Shown in pieces: positions 23,695 to 36,483 of a stretch of DNA of 64,000 nt. The notes beneath the pieces are model-generated. The model was not told where the DNA came from. It saw only the letters and a program-made list of their open reading frames with translations, and did not search any database. Numbering within the stretch: the first letter of the stretch is position 1; each line of letters opens with the position of its first letter. The position numbers were made by a program, and so were the translations under genes. Source of the stretch: Alcaligenaceae bacterium (lineage in GTDB: Bacteria; Pseudomonadota; Gammaproteobacteria; Burkholderiales; Burkholderiaceae_B); contig JACCET010000006.1 in NCBI GenBank assembly GCA_013416405.1, forward strand, positions 1 to 64,000, read 5' to 3'.

Positions 23695-24354
23695 TCAGGG
23701 CTCGTCGCCGTGCAACCCATGCTCGACGGCATAAACCGCCACCTGCACCCGGCTGGAAAGATTCAATTTCTTCAGAATGTTCTGCACGTGTATTTTGACT
23801 GTACTTTCGGCCACATCCAGATTGCGGGCAATGAGCTTGTTACTTTCTCCCCGGGCAAGGCATTGCATGATTTCACGCTCGCGCGTCGTCAGCCGTGCAC
23901 GTTCCAGCTCGGGGGATGTATCCCCGGTTGCATGTGAACGAAACTGCGCCACCAGCTTGGCCGTCATGCTGTCGGAAATGGTGGGTTCTCCGGCGGCAAC
24001 CCGGCGTATCGCCGCCGTCAGGGCATCGGCCTCTATATTCTTGAGCAAGTAGCCGCTTGCACCATCGCGCAACGCCCGGCCCAGCTCTTCGGCCTCTTCC
24101 GACACAGTAAGTATCAGGACCGCGCACGCGGGCAAGTCTTGTACCAGCAACTGCAAGGTATCCAGGCCCGACAGGCCAGGCATGTTCAAGTCCAGCAATA
24201 TGACATCGGGCGTCAGGGCCTTGGCTCGCTTGATGCCCTCGAGCCCGTCGGAAGCCTCGCCGACTATGTCGAAATCTGGCTGGCGTTGCAGCAACAGGCG
24301 TACGCCCGAGCGGAACAGACTATGATCATCGATAAGAAGGATGCGAATGCTCAT
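23695..24354 (-). CDS. narL: NarL-family response regulator
   Basis: 219 residues. The receiver domain has the acidic pair at D9/D10 and phospho-acceptor D55 (DVILLDLNMPG), with a Thr/Ser switch (LILTVSEE) and K in YLLKNIEADAL. The C-terminal LuxR-type helix-turn-helix (LTTREREIMQCLARGESNKL, then IARNLDVAESTVKIHVQNIL) is the NarL type. It follows the NarX-like kinase by 31 bases and the nitrate reductase operon, so it most likely activates nar promoters when nitrate is present. Confidence 0.9.
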   Translation of the reverse strand: MSIRILLIDDHSLFRSGVRLLLQRQPDFDIVGEASDGLEGIKRAKALTPDVILLDLNMPGLSGLDTLQLLVQDLPACAVLILTVSEEAEELGRALRDGASGYLLKNIEADALTAAIRRVAAGEPTISDSMTAKLVAQFRSHATGDTSPELERARLTTREREIMQCLARGESNKLIARNLDVAESTVKIHVQNILKKLNLSSRVQVAVYAVEHGLHGDEP

Positions 24355-24385: not shown

Positions 24386-25969
24386 TCAGGCAGCCTGCCT
24401 TGCATCGGCACGCAATAAAAGCATGATGGACGCGCCTGCGCCAGGACTGGAGTGCAATTCAAGCACGGCCTTCATGCGCTTGGCGCGCTCTTGCATGATA
24501 CGGCGCCCGAAGTGCTCGTCGGCTCGCTCATCGACTTCCTTGGGGTCGTAACCGACCCCGTTGTCTGACACCGACAATTCAAAATCATGCCGGTTCTGGA
24601 TTTTTATTTCCACCTTGGTGGCCTGGGCGTGCTTGCGTACATTCGACAAGGCCTCTTGTAGTATGAAAATAACCTGCAACTGCTGCTCAGGTGGCAAAGG
24701 CGGCCCGGCCAAGTCATCGGCGTTCAGCACCACTTCAATACCGCTCTGACGCCTGAAGCGTACAACCGTAGCCTCAACAGCCGTAAGCAAATCCCCCTGC
24801 TCCAGGCGGCTGCGAAAATTACCCAGCAATTCGCGCACATCCTGGTAGCTTTCATCGACCCCGGCACGCAGCAAAGGCACTATGCCATTGACCTCGGACA
24901 GGTCGCCGCGCGTTGCCGCCTGATCGAGCAGCTGCAGCTGCAGATTAAGAAAATTCAGGCCCTGGGCTATGCTGTCATGCAGGCCCTGTGCCATCAGGCT
25001 GCGTTCATGCACCATGGCCAGTTGCCGAGCCACAGCGCTTAGGCGGCGGTTCTCAAGGGCAATGCCCAGATGTTGGCCCAGCGTTTCCAGCAAATGCCGC
25101 TCTGCAGGGCTGAGTGCAAGGGTGCGCCCGAAATGCAATGAGAACGAACCCAGCACTTCTTTTTGCGCCTGTATGCGAAAAACCGCAAGGCTGCGGAATC
25201 CTTCCTTGGCACACTGGAAATCAATGGGTGTTGCAACCTTGTGTATGTCTTCGATAAACAGTATTCCGCTGCGCGTGGCTGTTCCGCAATAACAGCCATC
25301 GACCTTCATGCAATGCTCTGAGCGGTCATGAGCCTCGGACAGGCCTCGCGAAACCACCATGGTGAGGTGCTCGCTCTTGGGGTCAAGCGTGCGTATGGTT
25401 CCGCCACCCGCCTGAAACTGCTGGATCACCCGATCAAGAAACCCCGCGCACATATCTTCGATTTCGTTGGGCTGATTCAGAAATGCGGTGATATCGTAAA
25501 GCGCACCCAGCTCTTGATTTTGTTCGTTAAGCTGCGCCGTTTTCTCGTCGACCCGCGCTTCCAGATCGCCATACAGACCCTCAAGTTCATCGGCCATGCG
25601 ATTGAAACCACTGGCCAGCGCACCGAACTCATCCTGGGTTTCAACGGGCAGCCTCACGCCGAACTGGCGCGCGGCCACGCTGCGCAGGCCGTCGCCCAGC
25701 CTGAGGATGGGAAAGATGATCCACAAGTACAGCAAATAGATCATGGTGAGCGTGCCCAGACAGGCAATCACCACAAGTATGCCCTGCGTCAGGCGCAACT
25801 GCGATATCTTGCTGGCGCTATCGGCGCCTTCAATCTGCCAGGACAGCCAAAGTGTCCAGGCGATCATGGACAATACGACGACCAGCGCCACCACCGAGCT
25901 GGCGATGATGCGAGTGGAGAGCCGGTCGCGTAGCGCAGGCTGATTGGAAAGCGCAGTCATATCGTTCAT
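24386..25969 (-). CDS. narX: NarX-like sensor histidine kinase without a periplasmic sensor domain
   Basis: 527 residues. TM1 spans ~21-44 and TM2 ~63-90, with only about 18 residues between them. HAMP (~88-140) and a signalling helix follow, then a GAF-like central module with a cysteine group (C220, C226, C228, C253; SEHCMKVDGCYCGTATR), then a HisKA_3 domain with H331 (QGLHDSIAQGLNF) and a HATPase domain (NDNGVGYDP-like: VSDNGVGYDPKE). E. coli NarX has a ~115-residue nitrate-binding periplasmic domain, absent here. Context (nar operon, NarL partner) makes it the nitrate-system kinase, but its signal may be cytoplasmic. Confidence 0.85.
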   Translation of the reverse strand: MNDMTALSNQPALRDRLSTRIIASSVVALVVVLSMIAWTLWLSWQIEGADSASKISQLRLTQGILVVIACLGTLTMIYLLYLWIIFPILRLGDGLRSVAARQFGVRLPVETQDEFGALASGFNRMADELEGLYGDLEARVDEKTAQLNEQNQELGALYDITAFLNQPNEIEDMCAGFLDRVIQQFQAGGGTIRTLDPKSEHLTMVVSRGLSEAHDRSEHCMKVDGCYCGTATRSGILFIEDIHKVATPIDFQCAKEGFRSLAVFRIQAQKEVLGSFSLHFGRTLALSPAERHLLETLGQHLGIALENRRLSAVARQLAMVHERSLMAQGLHDSIAQGLNFLNLQLQLLDQAATRGDLSEVNGIVPLLRAGVDESYQDVRELLGNFRSRLEQGDLLTAVEATVVRFRRQSGIEVVLNADDLAGPPLPPEQQLQVIFILQEALSNVRKHAQATKVEIKIQNRHDFELSVSDNGVGYDPKEVDERADEHFGRRIMQERAKRMKAVLELHSSPGAGASIMLLLRADARQAA

Positions 25970-28187: not shown

Positions 28188-29759
28188 TCACCTGGCGACC
28201 ACAGTCGGCTTTTTGCGCGACTTGGGCATTTCTGTAAAAATTTTGCTGCCTTGCGGCTTGCGGCCAAACAGGCCGGGCTCGGACACGCCGTCGGAACAGC
28301 CGTTGCCGAAAGTGAAGCCGCAACTGCCCTTCTCGTTGAAGCTGTCTTCAACCATTTCCTTGTGGCTGGACGGGATCACGAAACGGTCTTCGTAGTTGGC
28401 TATGGCCATGATCTGATACATGTCTTCGACCGTTGCGGCGTCAAGCCCCACGGCATCCAGCACGGCGGTGTCGGTTACGCCATGCACGGTTTCAGAACGC
28501 TTGTAGGCACGCATGGCCAGCATGCGCTTAAGTGCATGCACTACGGGTTCCTCTTTGCCGGCGGTCAGCAGGTTGGCCAGGTAGCGCACGGGTATGCGCA
28601 GGCTTTCCACATCGGGTATCACGCCGTTAACACCAAACGTGGTGTGAGGCATGCGGCCGGCTTCAGCTGCCGACTGTATGGGCGATAGCGGCGGGATATA
28701 CCAAACCATGGGCAGTGTGCGGTATTCGGGATGCAACGGGAAGGCTACCTTCCATTCGCACGCCATTTTGTACACGGGTGAACTGCGCGCCGCCACCAGC
28801 CAGCTTTCGGGTATGCCCTGCTTGCGGGCCTCGGCGATGACTTCGGGAGAATGCGGATCAAGAAAAACGCCAAGCTGCGCTTCGTACAGGTCTTGTTCGT
28901 CCGGGGTGGCTGCCGCGCGCTCGATCTGATCGGCGTCGTACAGCATCACGCCCAGGTAGCGGATGCGCCCAACACAGGTTTCAGAGCAGACCGTGGGTTG
29001 CCCGGCCTCGATGCGCGGATAACAGAAGGTGCACTTTTCGGCCTTGCCGCTTTCCCAGTTGTAATAAACTTTTTTATAGGGACAGCCCGAGATACACATG
29101 CGCCAACCCCGGCATTTGTCCTGGTCGACCAGAACGATGCCGTCGTCTTCGCGCTTGTAAATAGAGCCCGACGGGCAACTGGCCACACAGGTGGGATTCA
29201 GGCAGTGTTCGCACAGCCTGGGCAGGTACATCATGAAGGTATTCTCGAACGTGGAATACATTTCCTTTTGCACACCCTCGAACAAGGCATCTTTGCTGCG
29301 CTCGCTGAATTCTCCGCCCAGATCATCTTCCCAGTTCGGCCCCCAGGTAATCTTTTCCATCTTCTTGCCGGTAAGCACAGAGATGGGGCGCGCCGTGGGC
29401 GGCGTCTGGCTAAGCGGTGCGTTTTGCAGATGCTCGTAATCGTAGGTGAACGGCTCGTAGTAATCGTCGACCTGGGGCAGATTGGGATTAGCAAACAGGT
29501 TGGCCAATATGCGCAGTTTGCCACCCTGGCGTGGTTGCAGCTTGCCTTGCGCGGTGCGCGTCCAGCCACCCTTCCACTTGTCCTGGTTCTCCCATTCCTT
29601 GGGATAGCCTACGCCGGGCTTGGTCTCGACGTTGTTGAACCAGGCGTATTCAACGCCATCGCGGCTGGTCCAGACGTTCTTGCACGTGACCGAGCAGGTA
29701 TGGCAGCCTATGCATTTATCCAGGTTCAGCACCATACCGATTTGTGCACGAATCTTCAT
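28188..29759 (-). CDS. narH: Respiratory nitrate reductase beta subunit (Fe-S)
   Basis: 523 residues. Four ferredoxin-like cysteine clusters are present: CIGCHTCSVTCKNVW; CEHCLNPTCVASCPSG; CRGWRMCISGCPYKK, with the Trp in place of Cys that gives the [3Fe-4S] centre; and CTFCYPRIEAGQPTVCSETC. It carries electrons from NarI to NarG. Its ATG overlaps the narG stop by 4 bases (ATGA). Confidence 0.97.
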   Translation of the reverse strand: MKIRAQIGMVLNLDKCIGCHTCSVTCKNVWTSRDGVEYAWFNNVETKPGVGYPKEWENQDKWKGGWTRTAQGKLQPRQGGKLRILANLFANPNLPQVDDYYEPFTYDYEHLQNAPLSQTPPTARPISVLTGKKMEKITWGPNWEDDLGGEFSERSKDALFEGVQKEMYSTFENTFMMYLPRLCEHCLNPTCVASCPSGSIYKREDDGIVLVDQDKCRGWRMCISGCPYKKVYYNWESGKAEKCTFCYPRIEAGQPTVCSETCVGRIRYLGVMLYDADQIERAAATPDEQDLYEAQLGVFLDPHSPEVIAEARKQGIPESWLVAARSSPVYKMACEWKVAFPLHPEYRTLPMVWYIPPLSPIQSAAEAGRMPHTTFGVNGVIPDVESLRIPVRYLANLLTAGKEEPVVHALKRMLAMRAYKRSETVHGVTDTAVLDAVGLDAATVEDMYQIMAIANYEDRFVIPSSHKEMVEDSFNEKGSCGFTFGNGCSDGVSEPGLFGRKPQGSKIFTEMPKSRKKPTVVAR

Positions 29760-32700
29760 TTTGCGGCTCCTTCGTTCATTGCTTCCTGTTCGAGCGGGCC
29801 TTCCAGCCAGTCTATGTTGGTCATTTTCCTGAGCACCACGAACTCATCGCGATTGCTGCCTACCGTACCGTAGTAATTGAAGCCATAGGCCTGTTGGGCG
29901 TACCCTCCTATCATGTGCGTGGGCTTGAGCACCGTACGCGTCACGGAGTTGTGTATGCCCCCGCGCTTGCCGCTGATTTGCGAGCCCGGCACATTCACGA
30001 TTTTTTCCTGGGCGTGGTACATCAGGCACATGCCCACCGGCACGCGCTGGCTCACCACCAGCCTGGCGGTCACGACGCCATTGACGTTAAATACCTCCAC
30101 CCAATCGTTATCGACCAGCCCCGCCTGCTTGGCTTCGGTTTCGGACACCCAGACATGCGGCCCGCCGCGACTGAGCGTAAGCATGCGCAGATTGTCGGAA
30201 TAGGTGCTGTGTATGCCCCACTTCTGATGCGGCGTGATCCAGTTCAGCACCAGCTCGTGCTCGCCATTGGAGTAGCGGTTCAGCATGGGCTGCACCGTCT
30301 TGGTATCGACCGCGGGCTTGTACACGCAAAAGCCTTCGCCGAAATCCAGCATCCAGCGGTGATCCTGATAGAACTGCTGGCGGCCGGTAAGCGTGCGCCA
30401 TGGAATCAGCTCGTGCACATTGGTATAGCCCGCGTTATAGCTGACCTCTTCGCTTTCGACGCCCGACCAGGTAGGCGAGGAAATAATCTTGCGCGGCTGC
30501 GCCTGTATGTCGCGAAAGCGGATCTTGTCGTGCTCGCGACCCAGCGCCAGATGATCGTGATTCAGTCCAGTAATCTTGGACAGGGCCCGCCATGCCTTGA
30601 GCGACACATGGCCATTGGTTTCGGGTGCGAAAGTTAGTATCATTTCGGCCGCATCTATAGCGGTATCCAACCTGGGCCGACCTTGGCTGACGCCAGGCTC
30701 GGAAACCAGCTTATTGATACCCCCCAGTTCCTTGACCTCGTGTTCGGTATTCCAGCCTATGCCCTTGCCGCCATTGCCCAACTTATCGAGCAAGGGGCCT
30801 ACCGACGTGAACTTGCGGTAGATATCCCGATAGTCGCGCTCGACCACGGTCATGGTGGGGGCTGTCTTGCCGGGGATGAGTTCGCATTCGCCATGCTTCC
30901 AGTCTTGCGGCGCGAACGGCTGGCCCAGTTCTCCGGGCGTATCGTGCATGAGCGGCGCCAGCACGATGTCTTTGCGCGTGCCCAGGTAGTCTCCGCCGAT
31001 CTCGCTGAACTTCTGCGCCAGCAACTTGTAGATTTCCCAGTCGCTCTTGCTTTCCCACAAAGGCTGCACCGCTTCGCTGAGCGGGTGAATGAAGGGGTGC
31101 ATGTCGGACGTGTTCAAGTCGTCTTTTTCGTACCAGGTGGCCGTAGGCAAAACGATATCGCCATAAAGACAGGTGGTGCTCATGCGGAAATCAAGGACAG
31201 TGAGCAGGTCGAGCTTGCCCTGTGCGCCCTCTTCGCGGAAACGGACTTCGGAAGGCTTGATGGCGTGGCTTGCATCGCTGAACAAGGCGTTTTGCGTGCC
31301 GAGCAGGTATTTCAGCAGGTACTCGTGCCCCTTGCCGCTGGAACCCAACAAGTTCGAGCGCCATACAAACATATTGCGCGGAAAGTTGGCTGGGTTGTCG
31401 GGGTCGTCGCAGCTCATATTCAGCTTGCCGCTTTTCAGTGCCTCGACGGTGTAGGCGACCGGATCCATGCCTTGCGCTTCGGCCTGCTTGACCACATCCA
31501 GTGGATTGGTTTCCAGCTGTGGCGCAGACGGCAGCCAGCCCATGCGTTCCGACTTGGCGTTCAGGTCTATCATGCTGAGCTTGTCGTAGTCAGCCACATT
31601 GGCTGTGGACGACAGGATTTCGTCTATACCCAGTTTTTCATGTCGCCACTGATTGCTGTGCGCGTAAAAGAACGACGTGCCGTTCATCTGGCGCGGCGGA
31701 CGGGACCAGTCGAGCGCAAAAGCCAGAGGCGCCCAGCCTGTTTGCGGGCGCAGTTTTTCCTGGCCCACGTAATGGGCCCAGCCGCCTCCGCTTTGCCCCA
31801 CACAGCCGCACATGACCAGCATATTGATGATGCCGCGATACGCCATGTCCATGTGATACCAGTGGTTTAGGCCGGCACCGACGATGACCATGGATTTGCC
31901 ATGGGTGTCGTGGGCGTTCTGCGCGAACTCGCGCGCCACCTGTACTACGCGCTCACGCGGGACGGTGGTGTATTTTTCCTGCCATGCCGGCGTATAGGGG
32001 ATGTCGTCATCGAAATCGGTGGCCACATTCGGTCCGCCCAGGCCGGCATCGACGCCGTAGCTTGCCATTTGCAGGTCGTATACCGTGGCCACCAGTGCGT
32101 TGCTGCCATCGTCCAGCAACAGCTTTTTGACTGGAACACGACGTACCAGGACGTCGTCGTGCCCGCCGGCAAAATATGGGAAAGCTACGTCGGCAACGTC
32201 ATCGTAGCCGTCCATCAAGCTAAGCTTGGGCACGACTACCTGACCGCTTGCCGCGTCTTTGAGCTCCAGATTCCAGCGCCCTACCTTACCGCCTGATTCG
32301 GCGCTGTCTTCGCCCCAACGCAAGCCTATGGTGCCATTTGGAACCACCAGTTCGCCGGTCAGCTCGTCGATGAGCAGCGTCTTCCATTCGGGGTTGTTGT
32401 CCTGGCCCAGTGCGTTATCAAGGTGCGAGGCTCGCAGGAAGTGGTCGGGCACCAGCCTGCCTTCATGCTCTTTGAGCATGACCAGCATGGGCATATCTGT
32501 GTATTGCCGGGCGTAATCGCGAAAGTAATCGGATTGCCCAGACAGATGAAATTCCTTCAGGATTACGTGGCCCATGGCCATGGCCAATGCAGCGTCGGTA
32601 CCCTGCTTGGGCGCCAGCCAGATATCACCGAACTTCACCATTTCACCAAAATCACTGGATACGGCAACCGTTTTGGTGCCCTTGTAGCGGACTTCGGTAT

Positions 32701-33499
32701 AAAAGTGCGCATCGGGCGTGCGCGTTTGCGGTACGTTCGAACCCCACACCATCAGATAGGTGGAGTTGTACCAGTCGGCCGATTCGGCAACATCGGTTTG
32801 TTCGCCCCACACCTGGGGGCTGGCCGGCGGCAGGTCGCAATACCAATCGTAAAAGCTCAGGCACACACCGCCGATCAGGCTAAGGTAGCGCGAGCCGGCC
32901 GCATAGCTGACCATGCTCATGGCAGGTATGGGCGAAAAACCTACAACGCGGTCGGGGCCGAACTTGTCTATGGTGTAGGCGTTGGCAGCGGCGACGATTT
33001 CCATGGAGGTGTCCCAGTCGGCACGGACAAAGCCGCCCAGGCCGCGCACAGACTTGTAGTGCTGCGCCTTGACCGGGTCCTGGCTGATCGATGCCCAGGC
33101 ACTGATAGGATCCATGGTTTTGCGCGCCTCGCGCCACATGGCCATGAGGCGCCCACGTATCATGGGGTACTTCACGCGCTGCGCCGAATAGACATACCAG
33201 CTGTACGATGCCCCGCGCGGACAGCCTCGGGGTTCGTGGTTGGGAAGATCGGGACGGGTGCGTGGGTAATCGGTTTGCTGCGTTTCCCAGGTAATCAAGC
33301 CATTTTTGACGTAGATTTTCCAGGAACAGGAGCCTGTGCAATTGACACCATGAGTCGAGCGCACGATTTTGTCGTGCTGCCAGCGGCTGCGATAGGTGTT
33401 TTCCCATTTGCGATCTTCATTGACGACTTCGCCATGCCCACCCGAAAAGGTGGACTGGACACGCGACATGAATTTCAGTCGGTCGAGGAAGTGGCTCAT
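29756..33499 (-). CDS. narG: Respiratory nitrate reductase alpha subunit (molybdoenzyme)
   Basis: Catalytic subunit reducing nitrate to nitrite with Mo-bisMGD in the cytoplasm. 1247 residues, full length. The N-terminal [4Fe-4S] site has the NarG pattern H50-x3-C54-x3-C58 with C93 (HGVNCTGSC; RGCPRGASYS). The Mo-ligand region is YNSTYLMVWGSNVPQTRTPD. The N-terminus lacks a functional twin-arginine signal, as is normal for membrane-bound NarG. The gene starts 156 bases after narK2 and has its own conserved upstream element. Confidence 0.98.
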   Translation of the reverse strand: MSHFLDRLKFMSRVQSTFSGGHGEVVNEDRKWENTYRSRWQHDKIVRSTHGVNCTGSCSWKIYVKNGLITWETQQTDYPRTRPDLPNHEPRGCPRGASYSWYVYSAQRVKYPMIRGRLMAMWREARKTMDPISAWASISQDPVKAQHYKSVRGLGGFVRADWDTSMEIVAAANAYTIDKFGPDRVVGFSPIPAMSMVSYAAGSRYLSLIGGVCLSFYDWYCDLPPASPQVWGEQTDVAESADWYNSTYLMVWGSNVPQTRTPDAHFYTEVRYKGTKTVAVSSDFGEMVKFGDIWLAPKQGTDAALAMAMGHVILKEFHLSGQSDYFRDYARQYTDMPMLVMLKEHEGRLVPDHFLRASHLDNALGQDNNPEWKTLLIDELTGELVVPNGTIGLRWGEDSAESGGKVGRWNLELKDAASGQVVVPKLSLMDGYDDVADVAFPYFAGGHDDVLVRRVPVKKLLLDDGSNALVATVYDLQMASYGVDAGLGGPNVATDFDDDIPYTPAWQEKYTTVPRERVVQVAREFAQNAHDTHGKSMVIVGAGLNHWYHMDMAYRGIINMLVMCGCVGQSGGGWAHYVGQEKLRPQTGWAPLAFALDWSRPPRQMNGTSFFYAHSNQWRHEKLGIDEILSSTANVADYDKLSMIDLNAKSERMGWLPSAPQLETNPLDVVKQAEAQGMDPVAYTVEALKSGKLNMSCDDPDNPANFPRNMFVWRSNLLGSSGKGHEYLLKYLLGTQNALFSDASHAIKPSEVRFREEGAQGKLDLLTVLDFRMSTTCLYGDIVLPTATWYEKDDLNTSDMHPFIHPLSEAVQPLWESKSDWEIYKLLAQKFSEIGGDYLGTRKDIVLAPLMHDTPGELGQPFAPQDWKHGECELIPGKTAPTMTVVERDYRDIYRKFTSVGPLLDKLGNGGKGIGWNTEHEVKELGGINKLVSEPGVSQGRPRLDTAIDAAEMILTFAPETNGHVSLKAWRALSKITGLNHDHLALGREHDKIRFRDIQAQPRKIISSPTWSGVESEEVSYNAGYTNVHELIPWRTLTGRQQFYQDHRWMLDFGEGFCVYKPAVDTKTVQPMLNRYSNGEHELVLNWITPHQKWGIHSTYSDNLRMLTLSRGGPHVWVSETEAKQAGLVDNDWVEVFNVNGVVTARLVVSQRVPVGMCLMYHAQEKIVNVPGSQISGKRGGIHNSVTRTVLKPTHMIGGYAQQAYGFNYYGTVGSNRDEFVVLRKMTNIDWLEGPLEQEAMNEGAAK

Positions 33500-33579
33500 T
33501 CATTTCTCCGTACTGCCGAGGAGCTCGGCGCTGTGGCGTTCGTGTATGTGGATACTCTAAGGATTTATCGGGACACGAT

Positions 33580-33622
33580 CTATTCTTCTGTGTGGGAAGG
33601 CGGCAATGGCAAAGGAACTAGT
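33580..33622 (-). promoter_or_regulatory. Conserved upstream element of narG (matches narK1 element)
   Basis: 43 bases that align without gaps to 36441-36483 at 32 positions. On the coding strand the element begins ACTAGT and contains two spaced TTGCC motifs. It lies 80 bases before the narG start. A second ACTAGT inside a GAACTAGTTC palindrome lies at 33638-33647. Confidence 0.5.
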
Positions 33623-33655
33623 GCCTATAGGTCTTATGAACTAGTTCTCTGCCAT

Positions 33656-35041
33656 TCAACATGGCATGACCGCGTTCTTGCGCGCATAAAACCACCAGGT
33701 AATGCCTACGCAACTGATATAAAACGCGATGAAGCACAGCAAGGCGGCCGACACACCGCCCGTCATGTCTATGGATGTACCGAAGCTTCTTGGAATGAAA
33801 AAGCCGCCGTAGGCGCCTATGGCTCCGGAAAAACCCAGCACCGCAGCTGACTCTTTGCTGGCGTCGGTAACGGCCTGCCGGGCCGCCTGCTCGCCCTGGC
33901 CTTCGGCTGCGCGCTGGCGCTCGGTCAGGAAGATGACGGGGATCATGCGAAAGGTCGAGCCATTACCGATGCCAGTAAGCGCAAACAGCACAATGAAAAC
34001 CCCCAGGAATCCGAAGAAATTACCCGCCTGTCCCTGGGCGGGAATAAAGAACAGCAAGGCCAGGACGGCAGCAATCATGCCTATGAAGGTGTAATAGGTA
34101 ACCCGCGCACCGCCCAGCTTGTCGGACACCCAACCGCCCAAAGGCCGGGTCAGCGAGCCGACCAGCGGCCCCAGGAAGGCATAGGTCATGGGATCGACTT
34201 CAGGAAACAGCGTCTTGGTCAGCATGGCGAAGCCCGCCGCAAAACCAATGAATGAACCGAAAGTACCTACATACAGCCAGCACATCAGCCAATTGTGCTT
34301 GCGCCGAAAAATGACCGCCTGATCGGCAAACGACGCTCGCGCCTCGGCAATGTCATTCATGCCGAACCAGGCCGCAATCGACGCCGCCAGTATGACCGGC
34401 ACCCAAATGAAACCGGCATTCTGCAGCCACAGGCTGTGTTCGACGCCGTCAACCGTATACGACTGCGAAGCGCCACCCAATGCGCCGAACATACCCACGG
34501 AAATGACCAGCGGTACGACAAACTGGGCGATAGACACACCTAGATTGCCCACACCGGCGTTCAAGCCGGTAGCCAGGCCCTTCTTGGATTTGGGAAAAAA
34601 GAAACTGATATTGGCCATGCTGGAACTGAAGTTGCCTCCGCCCAGGCCACACAAGAGCGCGAGCACCAGCAGCGTGGGATAGGAAGTGGACGGATCGCGT
34701 AATGCAAAGCCCATGCCCAACGCGGGTATCAGCAAAGTAGCCGTGGAAATCGCCGTCCAGCGACGTCCGCCGAAGATGGGCACAAGAAACGAGTAGAAGA
34801 TACGCAGCGTCGCGCCTGACAGCGCGGGCAGTGCCGTCAGCCAGAACAGCTGGTTTTTGGAAAGCTGGAAGCCGGCGCGATCCAGATTCACCACCACTAC
34901 GCTCCACAGCATCCAGATGCTGAAGGCCAGCATCAGGGCGGGAATCGAAATCCAGAGATTGCGGTGCGCCACCCGCGAACCGGTGTCTTTCCAGAACACC
35001 GCGTTCTCGGGATCCCAACGGGTCAGGACTTGACTGCTCAT
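33656..35041 (-). CDS. narK2: NarK2-type nitrate/nitrite transporter
   Basis: 461 residues from the ATG at 35041 (MSSQVLTRWDPENAVFWKDT). 12 membrane segments of the nitrate/nitrite porter family are visible, with signature stretches in the fifth and eleventh segments (LCGLGGGNFSSSMANISFFF; GNGSTFRMIPVIF). The long N-terminal extension and loop are typical of the NarK2 type, which exchanges nitrite for nitrate. An upstream open stretch of 48 codons overlaps narK1 and is not used. It follows narK1 by 56 bases with a strong hairpin between. Confidence 0.93.
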   Translation of the reverse strand: MSSQVLTRWDPENAVFWKDTGSRVAHRNLWISIPALMLAFSIWMLWSVVVVNLDRAGFQLSKNQLFWLTALPALSGATLRIFYSFLVPIFGGRRWTAISTATLLIPALGMGFALRDPSTSYPTLLVLALLCGLGGGNFSSSMANISFFFPKSKKGLATGLNAGVGNLGVSIAQFVVPLVISVGMFGALGGASQSYTVDGVEHSLWLQNAGFIWVPVILAASIAAWFGMNDIAEARASFADQAVIFRRKHNWLMCWLYVGTFGSFIGFAAGFAMLTKTLFPEVDPMTYAFLGPLVGSLTRPLGGWVSDKLGGARVTYYTFIGMIAAVLALLFFIPAQGQAGNFFGFLGVFIVLFALTGIGNGSTFRMIPVIFLTERQRAAEGQGEQAARQAVTDASKESAAVLGFSGAIGAYGGFFIPRSFGTSIDMTGGVSAALLCFIAFYISCVGITWWFYARKNAVMPC

Positions 35042-35071
35042 GTTTACACTCACTGAAAGAAGGATGGGGGT

Positions 35072-35091
35072 CGGGCGCCGGGCGGCGCCCG
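35072..35091 (-). repeat. GC-rich hairpin between narK1 and narK2
   Basis: Perfect 8-base arms CGGGCGCC/GGCGCCCG around a 4-base loop in the 56-base intercistronic gap. There is no T-run, so it is more likely an mRNA-stability or attenuation element than a terminator. Confidence 0.5.
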
Positions 35092-35097
35092 GGAGAA

Positions 35098-36372
35098 TCA
35101 GGCGGTATTTCCCAGGGCGGAAGCGGAGTCGCGCTGGCCCTGCGAGGGACGGAAGCTGAAGTGCATCCATACCAGCGACACGCAAACCGTGCCGTACAGC
35201 AACATGAAGCTGCTGGAGCGTATGCCGGTGATATCGAGCAGAGCACCGAACATGATCGGCAGCACGAAGCCGCCAAGGCCGCCCGCCAGGCCGACGATGC
35301 CCGAGACGGCACCTATGTTGTCGGTGAACTCATCGGAAATGAACTTGAATACCGATGCCTTGCCTATGGCCATGGCGATACCCACCACGAACATCAGCAC
35401 GGTGAATGTCGTGGGGCCCAGTGCAATGTGAAAGGTCTGCGGTCCGGTGGCCGTCTGTATGGTGAATTCCGTCTGGGGATAGCTGAGCATGAAGAAGGCC
35501 ACCCAGCACACCCACATCACCCACCAGGTAGTCTTGTATGCACCGTAGCGGTCGGAGATCCATCCGCCCAGGGCGCGCAGCACACCGCCCGGCAACGAGA
35601 AACAGGCTGCCAGGAAAGCAGCGACCTGAATGTCGAAGCCGTACTCGCCGATATAGTATTTGGTCATCCACAGCGCTAGCGCCACATAGCCGCCGAACAC
35701 CACCGAGTAATACTGACAATAGCGCCAGACCCGCCTGTCCTTAAGCACCTTCATCTGGTCTTTGAAACTCGCGCTCTTGCCCGTCCGGTGCGACGGGTCA
35801 CTGGCCGAGAAGATCCAGAACAGCAACGCGGTGACCAGCAGCGCTGCGGCATAGACCTTGGGAACTATCGTCCAGACGCCACCGGCGGCAATAATGAGCG
35901 CCGGCGCCACAAACTTGGTAATGGCCGAGCCCGAGTTCCCCGCGCCGAACACCCCCATGGCGAACCCCTGCCTGTGGCGCGGAAACCAGCGCGCAACATA
36001 AGGGGTGCCCACAGAGAACGACCCGCCGACCAGGCCCACGAACAGGGCCAGCACCAGGAAATGCCAATATTCGGTGGCATAAGCCATAAGCCAGATCGGC
36101 ACCACGGCAACCATCATGGTCAGGAAAAATACTATGCGCCCGCCATAGCGGTCAGTCCAGATGCCCAAAGGCACGCGAATCAGGGAACCGGTCAACACAG
36201 GCATGGCCGCCAACAGTCCGAATTGGGTTTCAGACAAGTTGAGCTGGGTCTTGATGGGGATACCCAGCACCGCAAACATCATCCACACTGCAAAGCAGAC
36301 GGTGAAGGCGAAGGTACTGGAAACCAGAACCATGTTTGCTTTGCCGGAACCGGCGCTGGAGGTACTGCTCAT
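35098..36372 (-). CDS. narK1: NarK1-type nitrate/proton symporter
   Basis: 424 residues, 12 membrane segments of the NNP family: RVPLGIWTDRYGGRIVFFLT and GLVGGSFSVGTPYVARWFP (first nitrate signature), then GAVSGIVGLAGGLGGFVLPI (second). Short loops and no N-terminal extension are typical of the NarK1 type, thought to import nitrate with protons when nitrite has not yet accumulated. A narK1-narK2 pair, sometimes fused, is common ahead of narGHJI in denitrifiers. It is probably the first gene of the operon. Confidence 0.93.
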   Translation of the reverse strand: MSSTSSAGSGKANMVLVSSTFAFTVCFAVWMMFAVLGIPIKTQLNLSETQFGLLAAMPVLTGSLIRVPLGIWTDRYGGRIVFFLTMMVAVVPIWLMAYATEYWHFLVLALFVGLVGGSFSVGTPYVARWFPRHRQGFAMGVFGAGNSGSAITKFVAPALIIAAGGVWTIVPKVYAAALLVTALLFWIFSASDPSHRTGKSASFKDQMKVLKDRRVWRYCQYYSVVFGGYVALALWMTKYYIGEYGFDIQVAAFLAACFSLPGGVLRALGGWISDRYGAYKTTWWVMWVCWVAFFMLSYPQTEFTIQTATGPQTFHIALGPTTFTVLMFVVGIAMAIGKASVFKFISDEFTDNIGAVSGIVGLAGGLGGFVLPIMFGALLDITGIRSSSFMLLYGTVCVSLVWMHFSFRPSQGQRDSASALGNTA

Positions 36373-36440
36373 GGTCTTGCGCTGCCTTTCTGATCAATTG
36401 ATGACGATGGCACAAGATTAGGGGGCAGACGCCTGCGCGA

Positions 36441-36483
36441 CCATTCCTCTGTGGGACAGTACGGCAACGGCAATGGGACTAGT
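36441..36483 (-). promoter_or_regulatory. Conserved upstream element of narK1 (matches narG element)
   Basis: Aligns ungapped with 33580-33622 (32 of 43 identical). It lies 68 bases before the narK1 start. It is not a recognisable FNR box, nor a clear NarL heptamer pair. Confidence 0.5.

Follow-up and report, generated by a model that had tools for sequence, protein, structure and literature searches.

In Escherichia coli, the regulators NarL and NarP recognize an operator of two inverted heptamers with two bases between them (the 7-2-7 layout, consensus TACYNMT-NN-AKNRGTA), and NarL contacts the DNA through Lys188, Val189 and Lys192. The engineered E. coli narG site at -89 is given as TACCCCTAAAGGGGTA in PMC4549865, where the NarL family is also described as activating napF and yeaR from positions abutting the -35 element, with 7-2-7 sites at approximately -38 to -49. 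For Burkholderia pseudomallei, PMC8191878 reports that a narL mutant was unable to use nitrate and that an fnr mutant was only delayed, and also that RegA and NarL both activate denitrification genes; these phenotypes fit NarL as a main activator in this group of bacteria. Here we describe a 43-base element that stands upstream of both narK1 and narG in a stretch of 64,000 nucleotides from an Alcaligenaceae bacterium (GenBank assembly GCA_013416405.1, contig JACCET010000006.1, positions 1 to 64,000; hereafter the window). Each copy, in the reading that we consider probable, comprises the activator region and the -35 edge of a separate promoter, and its CTAG part would provide at least one half-site for a NarL whose gene belongs to the same cluster.

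A Repeated Element Conserved in Related Bacteria

The narK1 copy (36441..36483, minus strand), running from a CTAG half-site to a GAATGG box, reads ACTAGTCCCATTGCCGTTGCCGTACTGTCCCACAGAGGAATGG on its own strand, and the narG copy (33580..33622, minus strand) reads ACTAGTTCCTTTGCCATTGCCGCCTTCCCACACAGAAGAATAG. As the first-pass annotation of this DNA had reported, the two align without gaps at 32 of 43 positions and lie 68 and 80 bases from their start codons. A best 43-base match of at least 32 was reached by none of 1000 order-1 Markov pairs (maximum 27) and by none of 990 random pairs drawn from the window (maximum 29). A composite pattern of the element has two perfect matches in the organism's own genome, namely the window pair, and one further match elsewhere with 2 mismatches.

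Conservation was assessed with a single scan of genome contigs, from which the best 80 of 474 narK1 loci were taken with their flanks; judging by organism names, we take most of these to be Burkholderiales, together with some Neisseriales and a single Dyella. The comparison covered 81 narK1 upstream regions (80 loci and the window) and 70 narG upstream regions (the loci containing narG), and when these were aligned the element was seen to recur among the relatives. In a scored search, a GAAT-type hexamer stood 19-21 bases 5' of a TAnnnT-type -10 hexamer in 79 of 81 narK1 and 54 of 70 narG regions, the spacing being 20 bases in 132 of the 133 detected cores and 19 in the remaining one. Because a scored search of this kind favours GAAT/-10 pairs, it was repeated with the plain pattern G[AG].[GC]AAT[AGT][GT]-N20-TA...T, which was found in 71/81 narK1 and 49/70 narG regions (0.2 and 0.0 expected from shuffles), never on the reverse strand, and in none of 26 regions from 14 loci whose NarL carries Lys192. 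The narG regions lacking a core number 16, and in 10 of them the narK2-narG gap is shorter than 110 bases. CTAG was located exactly 36 bases 5' of GAAT in 43 narK1 and 33 narG rows.

Not all of the sub-motifs named in the first-pass annotation have fared equally well. ACTAGT and GAAT recur among the 132 aligned promoter rows, CTAG being at its aligned place in 76 and exact ACTAGT in 52, with GAAT in 114 (a count inflated by the rows having been picked by a GAAT-type box and a -10). The second TTGCC and the CACAGA tract, by contrast, are not conserved: two TTGCC copies are present in 4/132 rows (both window rows and the narG rows of two Crenobacter loci, L064 and L076) and CACAGA in 3/132 (both window rows and narK1 of the nearest relative, L034). 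The CTAG of the narG core is replaced by CTCG in this closest relative and by CTAC in the next two (L035 and L036), so that position 3 is not fixed even among near kin. A related stretch of the CTAGTCCTTTAGTAGGGGG type (CTACTCCTTTAGTAGG in L069) was noted upstream of narK1 in L058, L063, L069, L071, L072 and L077, which belong to Zwartia, Sheuella and related metagenome-assembled genomes; NarL is more divergent there where it was read.

Core Promoter Anatomy

The consensus was built from the 76 rows with 36-base spacing (effective number 29.6) and numbered by setting the -10 hexamer at -12 to -7. It reads GRACTAGTcMCAtTGCc at -77 to -61, followed by a weakly conserved middle, CGGnGAATGGtC at -42 to -31 and then TAnRcT. 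Within it, a GGnGAATGG box occupies -41 to -33, in most cases with 36 bases separating it from CTAG and 20 separating it from the -10, and a -35-like TGGTCG lies 17 bases from TAnRcT; the hexamer at -35 to -30 keeps only the T, G and C of TTGACA. At narK1, on the minus strand, the GAATGG box (36441..36446) overlaps the predicted -35-like hexamer TGGTCG (36438..36443, with the conserved T, G and C columns), and the predicted -10 hexamer TAATCT (36415..36420) follows after 17 bases. At narG, also on the minus strand, the corresponding GAATAG box (33580..33585) overlaps the predicted -35-like hexamer TAGATC (33577..33582), again 17 bases from a predicted -10, TAGAGT (33554..33559). The element is best described as the control region of two predicted sigma70-like promoters, recurring in many related bacteria, of which one would drive narK1K2 and the other narGHJI.

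Other ways of reading these regions were tried and set aside. A sigma54 promoter has the pattern TGGCAYRNNNNTTGCW, whose best matches have 4 (narK1) and 3 (narG) mismatches out of 12. Pairing GAATGG with a left-hand partner into a complete NarL site at -48/-33 fails on that left half, which does not suit the consensus columns. The absence of a good FNR box, already pointed out in the first-pass annotation, was confirmed, the best match to TTGATNNNNATCAA having 3 mismatches out of 10 specified letters in both regions. Among the relatives, 30 of 81 narK1 regions hold an FNR-like box with no more than 2 mismatches, as do 3 of 70 narG regions (expected numbers 4.4 and 3.0, respectively), and most of those at narK1 are of the Achromobacter TTGATCC type. 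Many Achromobacter narK1 regions (among L039-L061) carry a recurrent TTGATCCAGCGCAA-type sequence with 2 mismatches, some 30 bases 5' of the CTAG core; this sequence is possibly a degenerate FNR/Dnr box.

A Probable Variant NarL Operator

In many loci a second or third CTAG is found upstream of the core site, with a recurrent spacing of 14. The spacing-14 pair is the inverted sequence CTAGTTC-NNNN-GAACTAG, which in 7-2-7 form is TAGTTCN-NN-NGAACTA. CTAG most likely marks a variant NarL operator, TAGTYCn-NN-nGRACTA, which has the E. coli layout but G in place of C at position 3. When no more than 1 mismatch is allowed, the TAG-type 7-2-7 pattern is present in 18/81 narK1 and 19/70 narG regions, as compared to 0.1 each in shuffles. 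Moreover, two Undibacterium loci and L079 contain the hybrid TAGTTCT-AA-AGGAGTA, made of a variant half and an E. coli-type half, and since the hybrid TAG/TAC sites share one frame, they place the palindrome in the NarL 7-2-7 frame.

The two upstream regions of the window had been annotated as having no clear NarL heptamer pair, which holds for the E. coli heptamer (TACYNMT, 7-2-7), whose best match has 3 mismatches out of 12 at both narK1 and narG, but does not hold for the variant: upstream of the narG copy lies the inverted pair TAGTTCA-TA-AGACCTA (33628..33643, minus strand), with 1 mismatch out of 12 to TAGTYCNNNNGRACTA. A third narG heptamer, TAGTTCC (33614..33620, minus strand), overlaps ACTAGT (33617-33622), and at narK1 a single variant heptamer, TAGTCCC (36475..36481, minus strand; -73 to -67 in the consensus), overlaps ACTAGT (36478-36483).

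These putative operators resemble the E. coli NarL/NarP operator in having inverted 7-base halves 2 bases apart near nitrate reductase promoters, in the use of single halves as well and in the existence of hybrids; they differ from it in having G rather than C at position 3 (half-site TAGTYC) and in the nearly fixed distance of the core site from the GAATGG box and promoter. No earlier description of a TAG-type NarL site was found in open-access full texts, subscription papers being outside the search.

Perfect 18-base palindromes of the variant operator occur 10 times, in 10 of 29 genomes (approximately 138 Mb), and all of them precede nitrate reductase operons: narG follows in 9 cases, and in the tenth, from Craterilacuibacter, a napF-like gene and napA. 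Palindromes with 1 mismatch occur at 13 places, and of the 8 looked at, 7 belong to promoters of nar or nap genes, as judged from locus or sequence, and 1 lies beyond narI and ppiC. In 9 of 14 genomes the composite pattern with 0-1 mismatch is matched, 14 times in total and each time at narK1 or narG; the other 5 genomes have no such match. Of its 19 matches with 2 mismatches, the loci of 16 were retrieved, and 2 of these 16 are at nar (L192 and L206). A broader regulon in the organism's own genome was considered and rejected, as a search for the 18-base palindrome with up to 2 mismatches gives only 4 places there, narG among them. In the Craterilacuibacter locus (L232, 1501-1541), two TAG-type NarL pairs stand together before the napF-like gene and napA, with an FNR-like TTGATGCAAATCAA directly downstream.

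NarL Type and Site Type

The window NarL (narL, 23695..24354, minus strand), the proposed binder of the element, is the product of the last gene of the nar cluster and consists of a receiver and a GerE domain, its closest solved relative being NarL. Its recognition helix, STVKIHVQN (23779-23805, minus strand), carries K187, I188 and Q191, which align to E. coli residues 188, 189 and 192. A search of 34 of the 80 named genomes for NarL gave a match in all 34, two matches covering the receiver part only. The helix was read in the 30 for which a locus was taken, and in every one, as in the window, E. coli Lys188, Val189 and Lys192 correspond to Lys, Ile (replaced by Ala in Dyella) and Gln. From 370 genomes of the class, of which 66 have narG, 40 regions were taken; 16 of them contain a NarL, with Lys at 192 in 14 and Gln in two (L162 and L177).

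Altogether, 47 NarLs were read beside nar genes, 33 with Gln192 and 14 with Lys192. The Gln192 genomes were scored as TAG in 19 cases, TAC in 3 and undecided in 11, and the Lys192 genomes as TAG in none, TAC in 12 and undecided in 2. For the association of Gln192 with TAG, Fisher's test, which ignores kinship, gives p = 8e-7. The distant Gln192 locus L177 was scored undecided because only its narG gap had been read at first; a 20-kb scan made after the fact revealed a single site within 2 mismatches, a perfect 16-base TAGTTCCTTCGAACTA directly after narL, followed by GGCGAATGG-N20-TAAATT ahead of a formate/nitrite-transporter-like gene (167 bits, under the model cut-off of 232) that leads to narG. 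The nar promoters of the 14 Lys192 loci (among L148-L187) likewise have a NarL-type inverted pair before the first nar gene, which in four of them is about 53-56 bases 5' of a TAGACT-like -10 (counted by eye). They differ from those described here in having TAC heptamers in 12 of 14 and in lacking, in all 26 regions, the GAATGG box 20 bases from the -10.

Proposed Mechanism and Alternative Explanations

The first-pass annotation had suggested that the element might combine the core promoter with a site for a regulator, either the local NarL or a different one. Comparative evidence supports this: the site keeps a conserved place beside the -35 and -10 hexamers, close matches lie before nitrate reductase operons, the hybrids are in frame, and there is an association with one NarL type. 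From these comparisons we infer that NarL binds the element and activates from it, and that the change from Lys192 to Gln, together with that from Val189 to Ile, caused the base change in the site. A NarL of this family would read TAGTYC(N) in place of TACYNMT, and sites with both halves would keep the inverted 7-2-7 arrangement of E. coli. Bound to one to three half-sites at approximately -96 to -67, phosphorylated NarL would then aid RNA polymerase at a weak sigma70 promoter (TGGTCG, 17 bases, TAnRcT), and the GGnGAATGG box would be either a low-affinity NarL half-site beside sigma or the site of a partner protein. Unlike napF and yeaR, these promoters have their clear half-sites at -67 and beyond.

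Several observations weigh against the reading preferred here. The GAATGG box bears little likeness to a NarL half-site (CGAATGG and CGAACTA agree at 4/7), and CTAG is at most 1 base off its expected place in 54/79 narK1 and 37/54 narG cores. The narK1 promoter of the window has one half-site and no variant pair, its best 16-base variant match having 4 mismatches. When up to 2 mismatches are allowed, the E. coli pattern is also above its shuffles, if less strongly (13/81 vs 3.2 and 11/70 vs 2.3), and three Gln192 loci (L062, L064 and L100) fit it better. On the NarL tree, Gln192 and Lys192 form a single split (support 100/100), so that their association with site type is one evolutionary event and not a series of repeated changes. 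Finally, with up to 1 mismatch allowed the palindrome is found less often than its reversed-pattern control, and the composite pattern with at most 2 mismatches gave 33 matches vs 45 for its reversed control in 14 genomes. The reversed controls outnumber the matches because CTAG is rare, and the argument therefore rests on the location of the close matches.

Among the alternatives, a division of labour in which NarL occupies CTAG and a second protein on GAATGG supplies oxygen control instead of FNR is a variant of the explanation preferred here, and one that we hold conceivable while leaning against it. The lack of an FNR box in the two window regions would be accounted for, as would the prevalence of a GAATGG-type box in the regions surveyed by plain pattern and its absence from the Lys192 loci, but no partner was found, and a box that overlaps the -35 may itself be part of promoter recognition. 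It is improbable that CTAG and GAATGG form the opposite ends of a single 43-base site for an activator other than NarL, most obviously RegA/RoxR. A spacing that hardly departs from 36 bases does suggest one rigid complex, and RegA controls nitrate respiration in a Burkholderia species according to PMC8191878; against this stand the in-frame hybrids with the E. coli NarL heptamer and the perfect palindromes before nitrate reductase operons. RegA was also rejected as the binder in that no match to the ActR/PrrA/RegA model exceeded the cut-off in the organism's own genome (best 63 bits, cut-off 250), although this model may not cover betaproteobacterial RegA.

The two promoters lie 2.9 kb apart in one cluster, and among the 53 loci with both cores their 43-mers share as few as 8 positions, as might be expected if the similarity were a by-product of duplication or shared ancestry without regulatory meaning. 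This explanation is very hard to reconcile with the retention of the same columns across the 76 aligned rows, or with the mean of 22.6 positions shared by the narK1 and narG 43-mers of the 53 loci vs 11.4 for random placements, an excess that persists when the CTAG and GAAT ends are left out (13.6/31 vs 8.5).

A wider scenario, which we regard as possible but on the whole doubtful, is that in a large, mainly betaproteobacterial NarL branch the replacement of Lys192 by Gln changed the reading of DNA and moved the nar regulon from TAC to TAG, giving an FNR-independent layout with GAATGG at a fixed 36 bases, in which one two-component system would set nitrate respiration and a conserved Cys-x5-Cys-x-Cys motif of the partner NarX would serve as oxygen or redox input. 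If true, the Gln192/TAG pairing would show how a large family of regulators made a simple change of specificity, and the element would account for the control of such operons without an FNR box. Most of these promoters would escape nitrate-regulon predictions based on the heptamer of E. coli.

Genomic Setting and the NarX Sensor

The nar cluster is on the minus strand in the order narK1, narK2, narG, narH, narJ, narI, a PpiC-type gene, narX and narL, with comEC upstream on the opposite strand. The narK1 gene (35098..36372, minus strand) belongs to the nitrate/nitrite transporter family (TIGR00886, 219 bits, under the cut-off of 312), and narG (29756..33499, minus strand) encodes the nitrate reductase alpha subunit (TIGR01580, 2139 bits). 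Of the named relatives found, Pusillimonas sp. MFBS29 is the closest, with a NarK1 93% identical to that of the window.

The narX sensor kinase gene (24386..25969, minus strand) lacks the periplasmic domain found in the relatives read. Its product has 527 residues vs 640-694 (counted from the most upstream start) in 17 relatives, all 17 of which have a periplasmic stretch with an LRM motif. Compared with the nearest relative, the window NarX has an in-frame loss of 118 residues, with the junction at approximately 25814-25831 and break ends that carry a short repeat, GCCG. A search of the organism's own genome at E 1e-15 detected no second NarX-like gene, and together with the periplasmic loss this means that nitrate sensing by the window NarX may have changed, leaving the element under constitutive or other input. 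The Cys-x5-Cys-x-Cys motif of NarX, a possible redox input, was not seen in L162 or in any of the 14 Lys192 loci (L181 being a fragment only), and it was noted in all 30 fragments from the Gln192 loci L114-L143 as well as in L177; the version in the window narX is CMKVDGCYC.

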